Of a stretch of 34,425 bases of DNA, positions 7,086-22,841 are shown piece by piece. The notes below the pieces were generated by a model. It was not told the origin of the DNA. It did no database searches and worked only from the letters and a program-made list of their open reading frames with translations. This DNA comes from an uncultured Gallionellaceae bacterium. GTDB taxonomy: Bacteria > Pseudomonadota > Gammaproteobacteria > Burkholderiales > Gallionellaceae. The stretch spans positions 1 through 34,425 of the forward strand of contig CAIRAO010000200.1 in assembly GCA_903876625.1 (NCBI GenBank), in the 5' to 3' direction. The first letter of the stretch is position 1. Every line of letters begins with the position of its first letter. Position numbers and translations under genes: made by a program.

Positions 7086-7222
7086 TTCTCCCCCTCCCCA
7101 ACCCTCCCCCGTTGGGAGAGGGAGTAAATTCAACATCCCGAAATAGATCCAGGTATTTCAACTCCCTCTTCCGGGTGCCCGGCCACAAGCTTTTTAGTCC
7201 AACGGGGGGGGTGGGGAGGGAG
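7086..7222. repeat. REPIN-like element (two inverted GC-rich ends flanking about 75 bp)
   Basis: Left CTCCCCCTCCCCAACCCTCCCCCGTTGGGAGAGGGAG; right CCAACGGGGGGGGTGGGGAGGGAG, the reverse complement of the left-end motif with a few changes. Same family as 19212-19362. Confidence 0.8.
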
Positions 7223-10635: not shown

Positions 10636-12261
10636 ATGAATTTTCACCCGAAACTATATTATGCGCAAGATCGGCTCAAATCTCTGTTGCTGCTTCTGGT
10701 TTTGGTCATCTATTTGCCTTTTCTGAATAGTCCTCTCGTATTCGACGACCTGTATTTTTTCAAAATCCCAATAAGTACCTACGCCAACAAGAATCTAGAT
10801 TTCTCATTGCGGTGGTTTTCTAATACTACGTTTGGCGTGACCTGGGTATTCTTTGGCGAAGCCCCCCCCGCCTTTCGCGTGCAGAATCTAATGCTGCATG
10901 GCATGAATGTGTTGTTGCTAATGTTGCTGATGCGACTGTGGATCAGACTATTTATTACGGATGCCGGTAAAGATAAGCTCGCCAATTGGGGGGCGTGGCT
11001 GGGTGCTTTGGTGTTCGCCTGTCATCCGTTGGCTGTTTATGGTGTGGGTTACTTGATTCAGCGCAGCATTTTGATGGCGACGCTGTTTTCGCTGGTGATG
11101 CAGCTCGCTTATTTGCGCGGCCTGTTGGAAAACAATAAAAGGTATATGGCGTTGGCAGTGGCGGCTTATTTTCTCGCTGTCTTCAGTAAAGAACACAGCA
11201 TCATGGCGCCTGCCATTTTGTTGCCGCTGACTTGGGTGCTGCGTAAGCAAATTAAATTCTCCCCGCGCATTTTGCTGGCAACCTGGGCAGGTTTTGCCGT
11301 GGTGGCGTTGCTGGTTGTCATGCGCATTAAAGGATTGCTGGGTGAGGCCTACGAGGCCGATGCTGCCAGCTTGTTTGGGCAACAAGAGATGTTGCAGGCC
11401 CTTCCGGCGGAGCGTTTGTTGAGTGTGCTTACTCAGGCCGGATTGTTTTTCAAATATTGTTTGTTAATGCTGCTGCCTGATCCGGCCTGGATGTCGGTTG
11501 ACATGCGCGAAACATTCATTCTTTCCTGGCGCGACTGGACGAGCTGGATAGGGCTCTTGGCCTTTGCCGGTTACGGCGTGTTTGCGTTGGGCTGTTTACT
11601 GCGCGGTGGCCGTCTCGCTTTGCTGGGTTTGGCCTTGCTCTACCCCTGGTTATTGTTCATGACGGAGTTTTCCAGTATTCGAGTGCAGGAAATTTTCGTG
11701 CTGTACCGAAGCTATTTGTGGCTACCGGGTTTCATGCTCCTGGTGCCCTTGTTGGCAAGTATTTTGCCGGAAAAAAAAATGGTACTGGTCGGGGGGCTTG
11801 TCGCGCTGTTGCTCGTCCCTTTGTCCTGGAATCGCTTGTGGGTCTTTGCCGATGACTATCGTTTGTGGAATGACGCCATACAACTGTTGCATGACGAAGA
11901 TCGCCTGGGGGCGCAACGAACCTATTACAATCGGGCGCAGGCTTCGGTGGCAAAAAAAGATTGGGATGCCGCTATTCAGGATTACCGGAAATCCTTGGCA
12001 ATTGATTCATCGCACCCGCAAGTTTATACGGCACTGGCAATAGCTTACTATGGTGCGAAGCAATATATCGAGGCACTCGCCACGTTTGACAAAGTGATTG
12101 CACTGGATGAAAAGAACGCCAGAGCTTATTACAATAAAGGCATTGTAATGAATGCGCTAAAAAACAAGGCGGGCGCGTTGAGTATGATGCAAAAAAGTTG
12201 TGCGCTGGGTGAAACGACCGCATGTGCGATAGTCAATATGGAACAGGCTAAAAAACGCTAG
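10636..12261 (+). CDS. GT-C-type polytopic membrane protein with C-terminal TPRs (TMTC-like; possible protein O-glycosyltransferase)
   Basis: 541 aa; PLVFDDLYFF in the first loop, HPLAVYGVGYLIQRSILMATLF, FSKEHSIMAPAILLPL, then TPR-like ALAIAYYGAKQYIEALATFDKVIALDEKNARAYYNKGIV. Confidence 0.7.
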   Translation: MNFHPKLYYAQDRLKSLLLLLVLVIYLPFLNSPLVFDDLYFFKIPISTYANKNLDFSLRWFSNTTFGVTWVFFGEAPPAFRVQNLMLHGMNVLLLMLLMRLWIRLFITDAGKDKLANWGAWLGALVFACHPLAVYGVGYLIQRSILMATLFSLVMQLAYLRGLLENNKRYMALAVAAYFLAVFSKEHSIMAPAILLPLTWVLRKQIKFSPRILLATWAGFAVVALLVVMRIKGLLGEAYEADAASLFGQQEMLQALPAERLLSVLTQAGLFFKYCLLMLLPDPAWMSVDMRETFILSWRDWTSWIGLLAFAGYGVFALGCLLRGGRLALLGLALLYPWLLFMTEFSSIRVQEIFVLYRSYLWLPGFMLLVPLLASILPEKKMVLVGGLVALLLVPLSWNRLWVFADDYRLWNDAIQLLHDEDRLGAQRTYYNRAQASVAKKDWDAAIQDYRKSLAIDSSHPQVYTALAIAYYGAKQYIEALATFDKVIALDEKNARAYYNKGIVMNALKNKAGALSMMQKSCALGETTACAIVNMEQAKKR

Positions 12262-12381
12262 TTCCTTTTGCTCTGTGCCGCGGCGATTTCGTGGAATTGT
12301 TTCAACTCGGTTTCAATCGTAGGTAACTCGTAGTAATCCGTCCCCGTTTGTTTGGCGAGCACCAGTTGCTCTATGGCGCAG
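12261..12381 (-). repeat. Diverged direct duplicate of the 3' end of the bepA-like gene (gene fragment)
   Basis: Minus-strand translation CAIEQLVLAKQTGTDYYELPTIETELKQFHEIAAAQSKRN matches the C-terminus of the 13051-14505 protein, CAIEQLVLAKQTGTDYYELSTIETELKQFREIAAAQSKKN. DNA aligns without gaps to 13054-13174. Confidence 0.9.
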
Positions 12382-13050: not shown

Positions 13051-14505
13051 TTAATTCTTTTTGCTCTGCGCTGCGGCAATTTCCCTGAATTGTTTCAATT
13101 CCGTTTCAATCGTTGACAACTCGTAGTAATCCGTTCCCGTTTGTTTGGCGAGCACCAGTTGCTCAATGGCGCAGCGCAGGTTGCCGTGCAATATACAGTT
13201 GTAAGCCAGTGCGTGGTGTTCTTCCTGGGTTCTATTCAAGGCGGCAAATGTCTTGGCCTGCAACTCATACAAATGCGAATCGTTACTATGAATCTGGATC
13301 TGCTCGTTGAGCAACTTAAGCGCGTCTTTGTAGCTGTGGCTTTCCAGTAAAATTTCGGCATAGTCATAAATCAAAGCGCGATGCTGGGGGAAGTTTTGCA
13401 AGGCGGTGCGGTAGAAGCCGGCCAGATTTTTATCTTGTCCGTCGGCACGTTTTATTTTTCCTGATAAGGTGGTGATCATCGGATTGGCAGGCACCATACT
13501 TTGCAGCGTCACCAATTCCTGTTCGGCTAAATTAATTTGTTTGCTGCGCAACAGGGCGAGCGTCAGCCCGTAACGATTGGCGATCGGGTTGCCGAATTTC
13601 TGTTCGCCCAAGGCTGATTTGAAATAAGTAACCGCTTCAGTCGGTGTTTTATTCATCGCCAGTAATTTGGCGCGCACCAGTTGAAAATTCAGACTATCCG
13701 GCACCAGATGAAATTGCATCTGCTGGATGCGGTTGTCTACATCGGCAATACGCTCTGCGGTGATGGGGTGGGTGCGCAGATAAGTCGGTGTGTTGCCTTC
13801 AACCAGGCGGGTGGCTCTTTGCATGCGTTCGAAGAAGGCGGGCATGGCGCGTGTATCAAAGCCCGATTTTTGCAGGGTGGCGATACCGATGCGGTCTGCT
13901 TCCTGTTCATTTGCGCGGGTGAAATTAAGTTGGCGCTGGATGACGCCGCCCTCTGCCCCCAAAATGGCGGCAGTGGCTGCCTGCGGGTTATTGCGTGCTG
14001 CCAGGATAGCCACAGCGATGGTCGCCATCGCGGCCAGTGAGTCGTATTTCTGGCCGGCGATCATGCGCGCAAAATGGTGCTGGGTGACGTGGGAGATTTC
14101 GTGGCCCAAAACAGAGGCCAGTTCGGATTCATTATTCGCAAGCAGTATTAAGCCGGTATTGACGCCGACAAAACCGCCGGGCATGGCAAAAGCATTGACG
14201 GCATTATCGTTGATGGCAAAAAACTCGAATTCCATTGCCGGCTCGGGGGAGTTGGCGACCAGTAACCCACCCAGCTGGTTGAGGTAATCGGCTATTTCAG
14301 CATCATCCACGTAAGCTTTGTCAGCACGAATCTGGTACATGCTTTGTTCACCGATTTGACGCTCTTGCAGGGGAGAGATCATTTCCTGCGAAGAGTCGCC
14401 CAAATCGGGTAACCCATCGGCATAGCAAACCGGCGTGAGGGAACAAAGCAAAATAAAAATAATCCGTTTCATGCCGCCTATGATAACCGCTTTGAATTTT
14501 TGCAA
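13051..14505 (-). CDS. bepA: BepA-like periplasmic M48 metalloprotease with TPRs (likely start 14472)
   Basis: Signal peptide MKRIIFILLCSLTPVCYA; HEXXH in ASVLGHEISHVTQHHFARM; ANEQEADRIGIATL; TPR-like C-terminus. Confidence 0.9.
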   Translation of the reverse strand: MQKFKAVIIGGMKRIIFILLCSLTPVCYADGLPDLGDSSQEMISPLQERQIGEQSMYQIRADKAYVDDAEIADYLNQLGGLLVANSPEPAMEFEFFAINDNAVNAFAMPGGFVGVNTGLILLANNESELASVLGHEISHVTQHHFARMIAGQKYDSLAAMATIAVAILAARNNPQAATAAILGAEGGVIQRQLNFTRANEQEADRIGIATLQKSGFDTRAMPAFFERMQRATRLVEGNTPTYLRTHPITAERIADVDNRIQQMQFHLVPDSLNFQLVRAKLLAMNKTPTEAVTYFKSALGEQKFGNPIANRYGLTLALLRSKQINLAEQELVTLQSMVPANPMITTLSGKIKRADGQDKNLAGFYRTALQNFPQHRALIYDYAEILLESHSYKDALKLLNEQIQIHSNDSHLYELQAKTFAALNRTQEEHHALAYNCILHGNLRCAIEQLVLAKQTGTDYYELSTIETELKQFREIAAAQSKKN

Positions 14506-19211: not shown

Positions 19212-19362
19212 ACCCCCTCCCCAACCCTCCCCCGGAGGGAGAGGGAGCAAATTCGCGCTCTTGGGAAAGACGTGCTACTGAACTCCCCCTGTCGGAGCAA
19301 CGTCACCACTCCGATCTTGATTTCATCTCCGTATCCCACCGGGGGAGGGTTGGGGAGGGGGT
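19212..19362. repeat. REPIN-like element with perfect 24-bp terminal inverted repeats
   Basis: ACCCCCTCCCCAACCCTCCCCCGG (19212-19235) and exact reverse complement CCGGGGGAGGGTTGGGGAGGGGGT (19339-19362). Confidence 0.92.
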
Positions 19363-19385: not shown

Positions 19386-22283
19386 TTAGCTCAGCTTACT
19401 GCGCTGTACCTTCAACTGAGCCAACGTTGAACTAAAATCCGCCACGCGTTTCTTTTCCTGTTCGACCACCGCGGCGGGTGCGCGAGCCACAAAACTTTCG
19501 TTATTCAGTTTTCCTTCCGCTTTGGCGATCTCGGCTGATATTCTCGAAATCTCTTTGTCAAGTCTTTCACGTTCAGTTGCGACATCGATCTCAACTTTAA
19601 GCATCAGTTTAAAATTGCCAACGATGGCAACTGCAGCATCAGTATCGGGTAATGCATCCAGTATGCTTACTTCGCTTAATTTGGCCAAAGCCTGCAAATA
19701 AGGTGCAAAGGCTTTTAGCGTTTTATGCTCGCCCGTGGCGAGCAGTGGAACACGAAGCGCAGGAGAGATATTCATTTCGCTGCGCAGTTTACGGCAAGCA
19801 TTGACCATTTCCTGGAGCAGACCGATCGTTTTAATGGAGGTGGGCGCGACAAATGTCAGATTGGCCTTGGGATAGGCTTGCAACATGATGGTGTCGCCTT
19901 TGATGCCGGCAAGCGGTGCAACCTTTTGCCACAATTCTTCGGTAATGTACGGGATGACCGGGTGTGCCAGTCGCAGGATGGCTTCAAGCACCCTGACCAA
20001 AGTGCGTCGCGTGGCGCGCTGCTGGGCTTCATTGCCATTGGCAATCTGCACCTTTGCCAATTCCACGTACCAGTCACAATAAGTATCCCATACCAATTCA
20101 TACAAGATACGCGCGGCGAAATCAAAACGGTATTCTTCGAATTGGATCGCCATTTCACTTTCAGCTTGTTGCAACAGGCTGATCATCCATTTGTCTGCGT
20201 CTGAAAATTCGAGAGGTAGCTTGGCGACTTCCCCCTCCCCAACCCTCCCCCGGGGGGAGAGGGAGTTAACAGCATTTCCGTTATTGGCGGAAATGGGATT
20301 AACAGAGACTAGACCGACATCTTTCCCTTCGCAATTCATCAGGACAAAGCGTGTGGCGTTCCACAATTTGTTGCAGAAATTACGATAACCTTCACAGCGT
20401 TGCATGTCGAATTTAATGTCGCGTCCGGGTGAGGCGAGAGAGGCGAAGGTGAAGCGCAAAGCATCGGTACCGAAAGCGGGAATTCCTTCCGGGAATTCTT
20501 TGCGTGTGCGCTTTTCGATTTGCTCTGCCTGCTTCGGATTCATGAGTCCTGTGGTACGTTTCTTCACCAGCTCCTCGATGCCGATGCCATCGATCAGGTC
20601 GATCGGATCGAGAACATTACCCTTAGATTTGGACATTTTTTGACCTTCCGCATCGCGGATGAGGCCATGAACGTAGACATTCTTGAAAGGGATTTTTCCG
20701 GTGATGTGTTTGGTCAACATTACCATGCGGGCAACCCAGAAGAAAATAATGTCGAAACCGGTCACCAGTACGGATGACGGAAGATATGCCTGAACAAACG
20801 GGTTTTGTTCAGGAAACGGAATTCCTTCTTCCCAGTCCAGGGTTGAGAAGGGCCACAACGCAGAGGAGAACCAGGTGTCGAGTACGTCATTGTCGCGGGT
20901 GAGTTTGCCTTGGTAACCATTCTTGGCGGCGATTCTTAATGCCTCGGTTTCATCATGCGCGACGAACACTTGGCCTGTATCACCATACCAGGCGGGAATC
21001 TGGTGCCCCCACCATAATTGGCGCGAGATGCACCAATCCTGTATGTTGTTGAGCCATTGGTTGTAGGTGTTCACCCAATTCTCGGGGTAGAACTTGATCT
21101 CGCCTGATGCGACACATTCCAGCGCCTGCTCGGTAATGCTTTTTCCTCCATCGCCGGGTTTGCTCATGGCAACGAACCATTGATCGGTGAGCATGGGCTC
21201 GATCACCACATTGGTGCGGTCACCGCGTGGCACTTTGAGTTTATGTTTCTCTGCTTTTTCAAACAAGCCCGCGGTGCCGAGATCAGCGACGATCTGTTTG
21301 CGCGCTTCGAATCGATCCAGCCCCTGATATTGCTTGGGTGCAAGTTCGTTGATTTTGGCATCAAGCGTGAGGATGGAGATCATTTCCAATTTGTGACGCT
21401 GACCTACTGCATAGTCGTTGAAGTCATGTGCGGGTGTCACTTTGACCACACCTGTGCCGAAGTCCTTGTCCACATATTCATCCGCGATGATGGGGATATC
21501 GCGCTCACACAGCGGGAGCTTCACTTTCTTGCCGAGGAGGTGTTTATAGCGCTCGTCTTCGGGATGTACCATCACCGCCACATCACCCAACATGGTCTCC
21601 GGACGGGTGGTGGCAACGGTAAGATGCTTTAAACCACCAACGTTATCGATTTCGGCCAACGGATAATGTATATGCCACATGAAGCCGTCTTCTTCTTCTT
21701 GCACTACTTCGAGATCGGACACCGCGGTGTGCAGTTTGGGATCCCAGTTCACCAAACGTTTGCCGCGATAGATCAGGCCTTCGTTGAACAGGCGCACGAA
21801 TGTTTCTGTAACGGAACGCGACAAACCTTCGTCCATGGTAAAACGTTCACGCGACCAGTCGGGCGAGGTGCCGAGGCGGCGCATTTGTTTGGTGATCGTG
21901 TTGCCGGAATATTCTTTCCATTCCCACACTTTTTCGATGAACTTCTCGCGGCCGAGGTCGTGGCGCGAGATGCCTTGTGCATCGAGTTGGCGTTCAACCA
22001 CGATCTGGGTGGCGATGCCAGCATGGTCGGTACCCGGTTGCCATAAGGTGTTGTCCCCGCGCATACGGTGGTAGCGCGTCAACGTGTCCATTAATGTCTG
22101 GTTGAAACCGTGCCCCATATGAAGTGTGCCGGTGACGTTCGGCGGGGGTAATTGAATGCAGAAAGATTCAGTCTTTTTTGGATCTTGACCTGCTTTGAAA
22201 TAGCCTGCGCTTTCCCATTTGTCGTACCAGTAGGCTTCTGTTGTTTTGGGTTCAAAACTTTTTGCGAGTTCTTTGGTGTTCAT
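19386..22283 (-). CDS. valS: Valyl-tRNA synthetase (canonical start ATG 22283; ORF open to 22841)
   Basis: [63 protein letters not shown]-terminal coiled-coil. Confidence 0.97.
20230..20265. repeat. Copy of the GC-rich REP motif inside valS coding sequence
   Basis: CCCCCTCCCCAACCCTCCCCCGGGGGGAGAGGGAG; reads in frame on the - strand as [12 protein letters not shown]. Confidence 0.9.
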
Positions 22284-22841
22284 GCTTTTAGTATTAAGTT
22301 GAGGCGCAGCAGATGCGCTGATTTTGTGTTTTTGGGAATTGCCAATAACGGGCTTGTCGAAAGAGGTCGAGATTATACCTAATGCAGCTGTGGCCGATTC
22401 TATGAGCTGCGTGCGAATCATATCCGGCAAAGCATTTTGGAAATGAGTCCATTCGGCATGGCCGGAGAAGCGATCATGAAACAGGGCAGAGATTTTAGTG
22501 GACAGACTGCTGTTGAAATGCAGGCATTGTTCTGCCGTTAACGAGATAAGCGCTTCCTGTGATGTATCAACTGGCTGAATCTCGTTAACGTGAAACTCGC
22601 GTAGCGATTCGTTCGCACCCTTTCTCTCCGGGGGAGGGTTGGGGAGGGGGAAACGGGCATCGCGAGTTTCATTTTTCGGAGTGGCACAATTGCCATGCCC
22701 GTTAGGTTGAGTTGGAAGCGACTCTACTTTGCGCGAAACTTCTTCTGTTAATACAGGAATTTTTATCGGGGTTTTGTCGACGACATCAGTTAATACGGGA
22801 AGTTTTTTCCAATGTGCATTTTCGTTGGGCTTGTTAATCAT
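22284..22841 (-). CDS. Unknown protein segment in frame with, and with no stop before, valS
   Basis: [35 protein letters not shown]... continues uninterrupted into ValS; its ATG follows the holC stop immediately. Confidence 0.6.
22619..22651. repeat. Copy of the GC-rich REP motif in the valS upstream ORF, enclosed by an 11-bp inverted repeat
   Basis: CTTTCTCTCCGGGGGAGGGTTGGGGAGGGGG; outer arms TGAAACTCGCG (22591-22601) and CGCGAGTTTCA (22661-22671). Confidence 0.85.

Follow-up and report, generated by a model that had tools for sequence, protein, structure and literature searches.

An ORF encoding ValS in an uncultured member of the Gallionellaceae contains, in uninterrupted frame, a 35-bp palindromic repeat of the REP type; very probably this is a mobile element that inserted, or was copied, into the gene at a surface loop of permissive character, to be translated and tolerated there as extra loop peptide. 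The sequence analysed, here termed the window, is contig C200 (34,425 nucleotides) of a draft metagenome-assembled genome (G000; 3.93 Mb in 492 contigs, with 5.57% contamination), whose nearest named relatives are MAGs of Gallionella and Sideroxydans. The insert is not an isolated oddity, being one of some 20 copies of the repeat situated in the interior of coding sequences of this genome. Precedents for REPs read in frame within proteins, among them tRNA synthetases, have already been published (PMC3733652; Rickettsia RPEs). Here we describe the insert and its repeat family, the recurrence of inserts at the same loop in related genomes, and an association of this class of repeat with genes encoding DUF559 nucleases that may bear on its dissemination.

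Integrity of the valS gene

The valS ORF occupies 19386-22841 of the minus strand, with 1151 aa encoded by 19389-22841, and its translation contains no internal stop. Pfam and NCBIfam profiles identified the complete set of ValS domains (PF00133, PF08264, PF10458), with a score of 1102.8 bits against TIGR00422 (cut-off, 612.1). A profile search revealed no second locus above that cut-off, indicating that full-length valS is present in single copy. Outside the insert the protein is 90% identical to ValS of the sister genome G001, with a pN/pS of 0.09, and by this comparison is evidently under purifying selection.

ValS proper begins at about position 22286. The remainder of the ORF (22287-22841, minus strand) encodes PVLTEVV repeats read in frame with valS, and in all seven genomes of the same genus whose valS was read (G000-G006) this segment is joined to the valS frame with no stop between. 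It is likely an N-terminal fusion or extension of ValS, which we take to be related to DUF2486-type proteins. Within it, also in frame, lies a palindromic repeat of 120-135 bp (approximately 22572-22706, minus strand), other copies of which are 83-91% identical, and which is absent from the same-genus genome G001; its REP core (22616-22650) constitutes a second copy of the repeat in the valS ORF that the initial annotation had overlooked.

The insert in the ValS hinge

The extra segment (20219-20314, minus strand) lengthens an inter-helix loop of ValS: the stretch from KLW to DKW measures 61 residues here and 34 in relatives lacking the insert, a difference of 27 residues. This is near the 30 or so residues that the initial annotation had attributed to a REP-type repeat held in frame within an essential gene, and the uninterrupted frame bears out that description; however, only about 12 of the 27 residues are encoded by the repeat copy itself (20231-20265, minus strand, 35 bp), the remainder being contributed by an adjoining imperfect hairpin of the form GTTAA..CATTTCCG-7nt-CGGAAATG..TTAAC (20265-20303, minus strand), likewise read in the ValS frame. 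The stem of this hairpin folds and is single in the genome; since a genome search retrieved no repeats of it, its candidacy as a second repeat family was discarded. The small inverted repeat previously placed at about 20272-20294 is present at 20273-20280/20288-20295, one base from that position, and is nested within the larger hairpin. In the valS mRNA the REP alone is calculated to fold at -22.8 kcal/mol, and together with the neighbouring hairpin at -38.7 kcal/mol. As had been supposed, the motif is the one found between genes in the window: the 35-bp repeat also occurs at 7090-7124 (plus strand, outside long ORFs), as the inverted, REPIN-like intergenic pair starting at 19213 and 19327 (19213-19361, just downstream of valS), and at 22616. 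The hinge copy is single and outside inverted pairs.

On comparison with solved structures the insert takes the place of a short loop that joins two helices in the anticodon-binding domain, comprising residues 596-605 in ValS of T. thermophilus (1GAX), about 3 residues in the P. aeruginosa domain (4xkz), and 42 here. An AlphaFold2 model predicted the insert to be disordered, assigning pLDDT values below 50 to residues 661-688 between confidently modelled helices (632-652 and 696-717); the modelled anticodon domain superimposed on 4xkz with a TM score of 0.85. Because of a shallow alignment the catalytic half was modelled poorly, and structural use of the model is therefore confined to the anticodon domain.

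Sequence, abundance and class of the repeat

Interrogation of the genome with a 121-bp segment spanning the insert yielded 60 further matches (E-values 7e-14 to 6e-5), all lying within query positions 11-65 and most within 22-56, that is, restricted to the repeat. A 21-bp core occurs exactly 45 times and, at up to two mismatches, in 100 places in the 3.93 Mb. The 99 copies compared give the consensus ACCCCCTCCCCAACCCTCCCCCGGTGGGAGAGGGAGC, a unit of 35 bp with stem CCCTCYCCC/GGGAGAGGG, and in its size, imperfect palindromic form and copy number (about 100) the family conforms to the general description of REPs as imperfect palindromes of 20-40 bp present in high copy. It falls outside the GTAG and CGTC superfamilies, neither tetranucleotide occurring in the 99-copy consensus. 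Counted at up to one mismatch, copies number 67 in G000, 32 in G001, 23 in G028 and 18 each in G007 and G044, and many relatives have none.

Inverted doublets at short spacing, characteristic of REPINs, account for 38 of the 99 copies, arranged as 19 pairs 60-193 bp apart; the tails face outward in 18 of these, the sole exception being a pair in polA with tails inward, the same orientation as around the DUF559 genes described below. Of five Y1_Tnp matches in the genome, one is a fragment and the other four were inspected over 2.3-3.0 kb; no REP copy was seen at any of these four Y1-transposase loci, and RAYT was accordingly dropped as a candidate neighbour of the family. An Rfam search with the REPIN produced only sub-threshold miRNA matches, which we judged to be chance. 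The consensus, like 72 of the 99 copies, is free of stops in all six frames. This property is found in 2.6% of random 37-mers at 48% GC and in 41% of shuffled sequences having the composition of the repeat, and is therefore largely a by-product of composition.

Two other repeats were observed in the window: an inverted pair of a GTAG-tagged, GTAGGAGCG-type repeat at 17-100, apparently a separate and rare REP family (one other match in 357 kb of loci), and a 123-bp direct repeat (12259-12381 and 13052-13174; 88% identity, 793 bp apart).

Copies within other proteins

When the surroundings of the 99 copies were fetched and scanned for genes, 20 copies proved to be interior to 12 recognisable genes: six in hrpA, two each in polA, purL and the gene of an MmeI-type methyltransferase, and one each in nifN, earP, prmC, mutS, leuS, mnmC, valS and the gene of a GlcD-like oxidase. 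Eight more lie near the termini of rnfG, yjbH, hpnE, ffh, bioH, mnmA, a lysophospholipid acyltransferase gene and the valS extension, those at N-termini possibly falling outside the protein if the true start is later. Most of the genes concerned exceed NCBIfam equivalog cut-offs. Against solved homologues the repeat appears as a clean insert in LeuS (562-589), PurL (359-400 and 1073-1108) and EarP (about 12 residues), and at the REP in MutS the protein is longer by a net 7 residues or so; the copies in PolA, PrmC and MnmC sit between Pfam or NCBIfam domains. The family shares with RPE-type elements the occurrence of in-frame palindromic inserts in conserved ORFs, a rule that here pertains to genes still recognisable as such.

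Inserts at the same loop in related genomes

Most relatives aligned with this ValS have no insert at the hinge, and those with a similar hinge peptide carry REP-like DNA of their own there. A distant ValS bearing this peptide where the repeat family is missing, which the initial annotation had named as refuting evidence, did not turn up. Searches with gap patterns retrieved an insert at this loop in at least eight of 159 Gallionellaceae genomes, a lower bound because the patterns allowed no mismatch and only fixed ranges of gap. All eight inserts are in frame. Five are REP-like (G000, G044, G072, G181 and G193), two (G154 and G156; loci L224 and L225) share a different, unrelated repeat, GTGRAGACTTACYTGCRCAGCARGTTWGTCGKAAC, and the 23-residue insert of G001 is of neither type. 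The hinge inserts of the sister genomes G000 and G001 align no better than shuffled sequences, and their homology was rejected. Since G001 is extended at this very position by sequence unrelated to the REP, the loop may already have been long when the REP was acquired. In a ValS tree constructed with the insert left out, the observed distribution requires seven changes, of which three are forced by well-supported branches alone. Judged from these sequences, the loop is a permissive site, its inserts being of three or more kinds unrelated in sequence.

Origin and alternative interpretations of the insert

We envisage that a mobile REP inserted into, or was copied into, the sequence encoding a surface loop of ValS. 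Lacking stops in six frames, a REP inserted in frame adds peptide instead of killing the gene, and the product would be a short, disordered stretch made as part of ValS, probably near-neutral in effect and tolerated because it only extends the loop connecting a pair of helices in the anticodon-binding domain. Insertions that broke the frame would be purged by selection, so that the genic copies surviving would be in frame, many of them in loops or linkers.

A draft MAG invites the suspicion of an assembly artefact or chimera, as assemblies fail at repeats; yet inserts occupy the same ValS site in seven other genomes, comparable in-frame inserts are found in many genes on other contigs, and misassembly at repeats seldom preserves frame, making this explanation very unlikely. 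Excision of the segment at the RNA or protein level, as an intervening sequence, bypass or intein-like element, is suggested by a hairpin within an essential gene and by the nuclease genes that elsewhere travel with such repeats, and we consider it just as improbable: removal would need neither an open frame, nor a length divisible by three, nor the in-frame condition of all eight loop inserts, and a domain search of the ValS ORF found no splicing domain. Somewhat less remote, if still improbable, is domestication, in which the strong mRNA hairpin or the added peptide tunes the synthesis or activity of ValS. The stable stem formed with the neighbouring hairpin and the repeated use of one loop would accord with such a role; against it, the loop inserts vary among species in sequence, length and kind, most relatives have none, and the same REP occurs in many unrelated proteins, as expected of a tolerated element.

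DUF559 nuclease genes bracketed by REPs

Both DUF559 (PF04480) genes of this genome, which score above the Pfam cut-off, are near REPs: one encodes a nuclease domain within HrpA (L164:6096-11099) that is bracketed in frame by inverted REPs, and the other is accompanied on one side by a REP at a distance of about 100 bp. As these genes are near REPs and the Y1-transposase loci are not, flanking sequences were examined with no assumed repeat sequence; and because an HMM tuned to G000 overlooked divergent REPs at DUF559 loci, left and right flanks were compared by family-free inverted alignment. Loci were chosen with no regard to their flanks, the first 20 by long frames and the second 20 by top scores among short frames. 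The left flank matched the reverse complement of the right above all shuffles at 21 of 22 Gallionellaceae loci and at 19 of 20 free-standing DUF559 genes, giving inverted REP brackets at 40 of 42 loci in all. Inverted matching flanks were likewise found at 22 of 28 loci in other families of the class, and in control flanks at 0 of 300 and 1 of 49. The tails of the REPs point toward the DUF559 gene in 40 of the 42 cases that could be oriented by a generic pattern. This orientation, opposite to that in REPINs, opposes a derivation of REPINs from DUF559 elements by loss of the gene.

Among the long-frame loci (L233-L252) the REP-DUF559-REP block lies in frame within HrpA, MetG, MmeI-like enzymes and TrpC, hosts named from conserved motifs, with HrpA and DUF559 identified by profile as well. 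At a second HrpA site, a REP pair in G000 stands against a REP pair plus DUF559 plus a further REP in G152. A separate observation concerns an MmeI-like enzyme (L167) in which four relatives have REP-DUF559-REP at a site where this genome has another peptide, VRPELVEGHASTSSARTN, repeat-like in appearance. In a comparison of folds, a DUF559 model matches 3hrl (an endonuclease-like protein; E 3.2e-7), 3r3p (the homing endonuclease I-Bth0305I; E 3.8e-4) and 1vsr (Vsr; E 0.024). The DUF559 profile likewise matches 3hrl and 3r3p; its matches to enterotoxin B (E 0.05 and worse) were set aside as chance. A plasmid search with one DUF559 element returned just REP-like matches of 40-45 bp, and no link between DUF559 and REPs was found in the non-subscription literature searched.

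These features support, short of proof, a DUF559-driven mobile element behind the REPs; alternatively, DUF559 genes might merely insert beside REPs. We tentatively put forward a broader form of the element reading, as a serious possibility rather than a probability: the untagged CCCTCTCCC-type REPs may serve as ends, or as targets, for a mobile element not previously described, having a DUF559 nuclease of I-Bth0305I/Vsr fold as its sole gene and inserting in frame in essential proteins (HrpA, MetG, MmeI-like enzymes and TrpC) as a translated, unspliced REP-nuclease-REP block; the REP of ValS would then be a solitary copy that this machinery left behind or disseminated.

Relation to known systems and implications

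Palindromes of 20-40 bp, inverted doublets and intragenic copies, including those in DNA polymerase I and tRNA synthetases, were described for GTAG- and CGTC-tagged REPs by Di Nocera and co-workers (2013, PMC3733652), for which flexible linkers or loops were already proposed. The present family resembles those REPs in palindrome size, doublets and intragenic occurrence, and differs in its untagged consensus and in having no copy near the four Y1-transposase loci checked. Similarly, the inverted pairs under 200 bp recall REPIN/RAYT (TnpA-REP) systems, whereas the gene bracketed here encodes DUF559, a nuclease like Vsr and homing endonucleases rather than an HUH transposase, and REP tails that face outward in REPINs point toward the gene at DUF559 loci. 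From I-Bth0305I and Vsr, whose fold it matches, DUF559 differs in lying between REPs, either free-standing or in frame in a host protein, and not in an intron. The resemblance to Rickettsia palindromic elements proposed initially holds for manner of working, as it does for the coding palindromes of Wolbachia: a palindromic repeat lies in frame in many conserved proteins and is borne as extra peptide. This comparison is one of features. The Gallionellaceae repeat occurs in another bacterium and is by organism no RPE; it is moreover a GC-rich unit read in all frames and both orientations, and a nuclease gene travels with its class.

The ValS insert is itself of a known type; the element behind it is possibly new. 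With its description, coding REPs, previously recorded in Rickettsia and a small number of other genomes, are extended to a family of free-living bacteria, in the form of a repeat family that is untagged and has no evident link to RAYT. The inserts provide a natural map of where essential enzymes tolerate longer loops, a single loop of ValS having taken three or more unrelated kinds, and with the DUF559 nuclease as candidate mobiliser of this class of REPs, their spread becomes testable.
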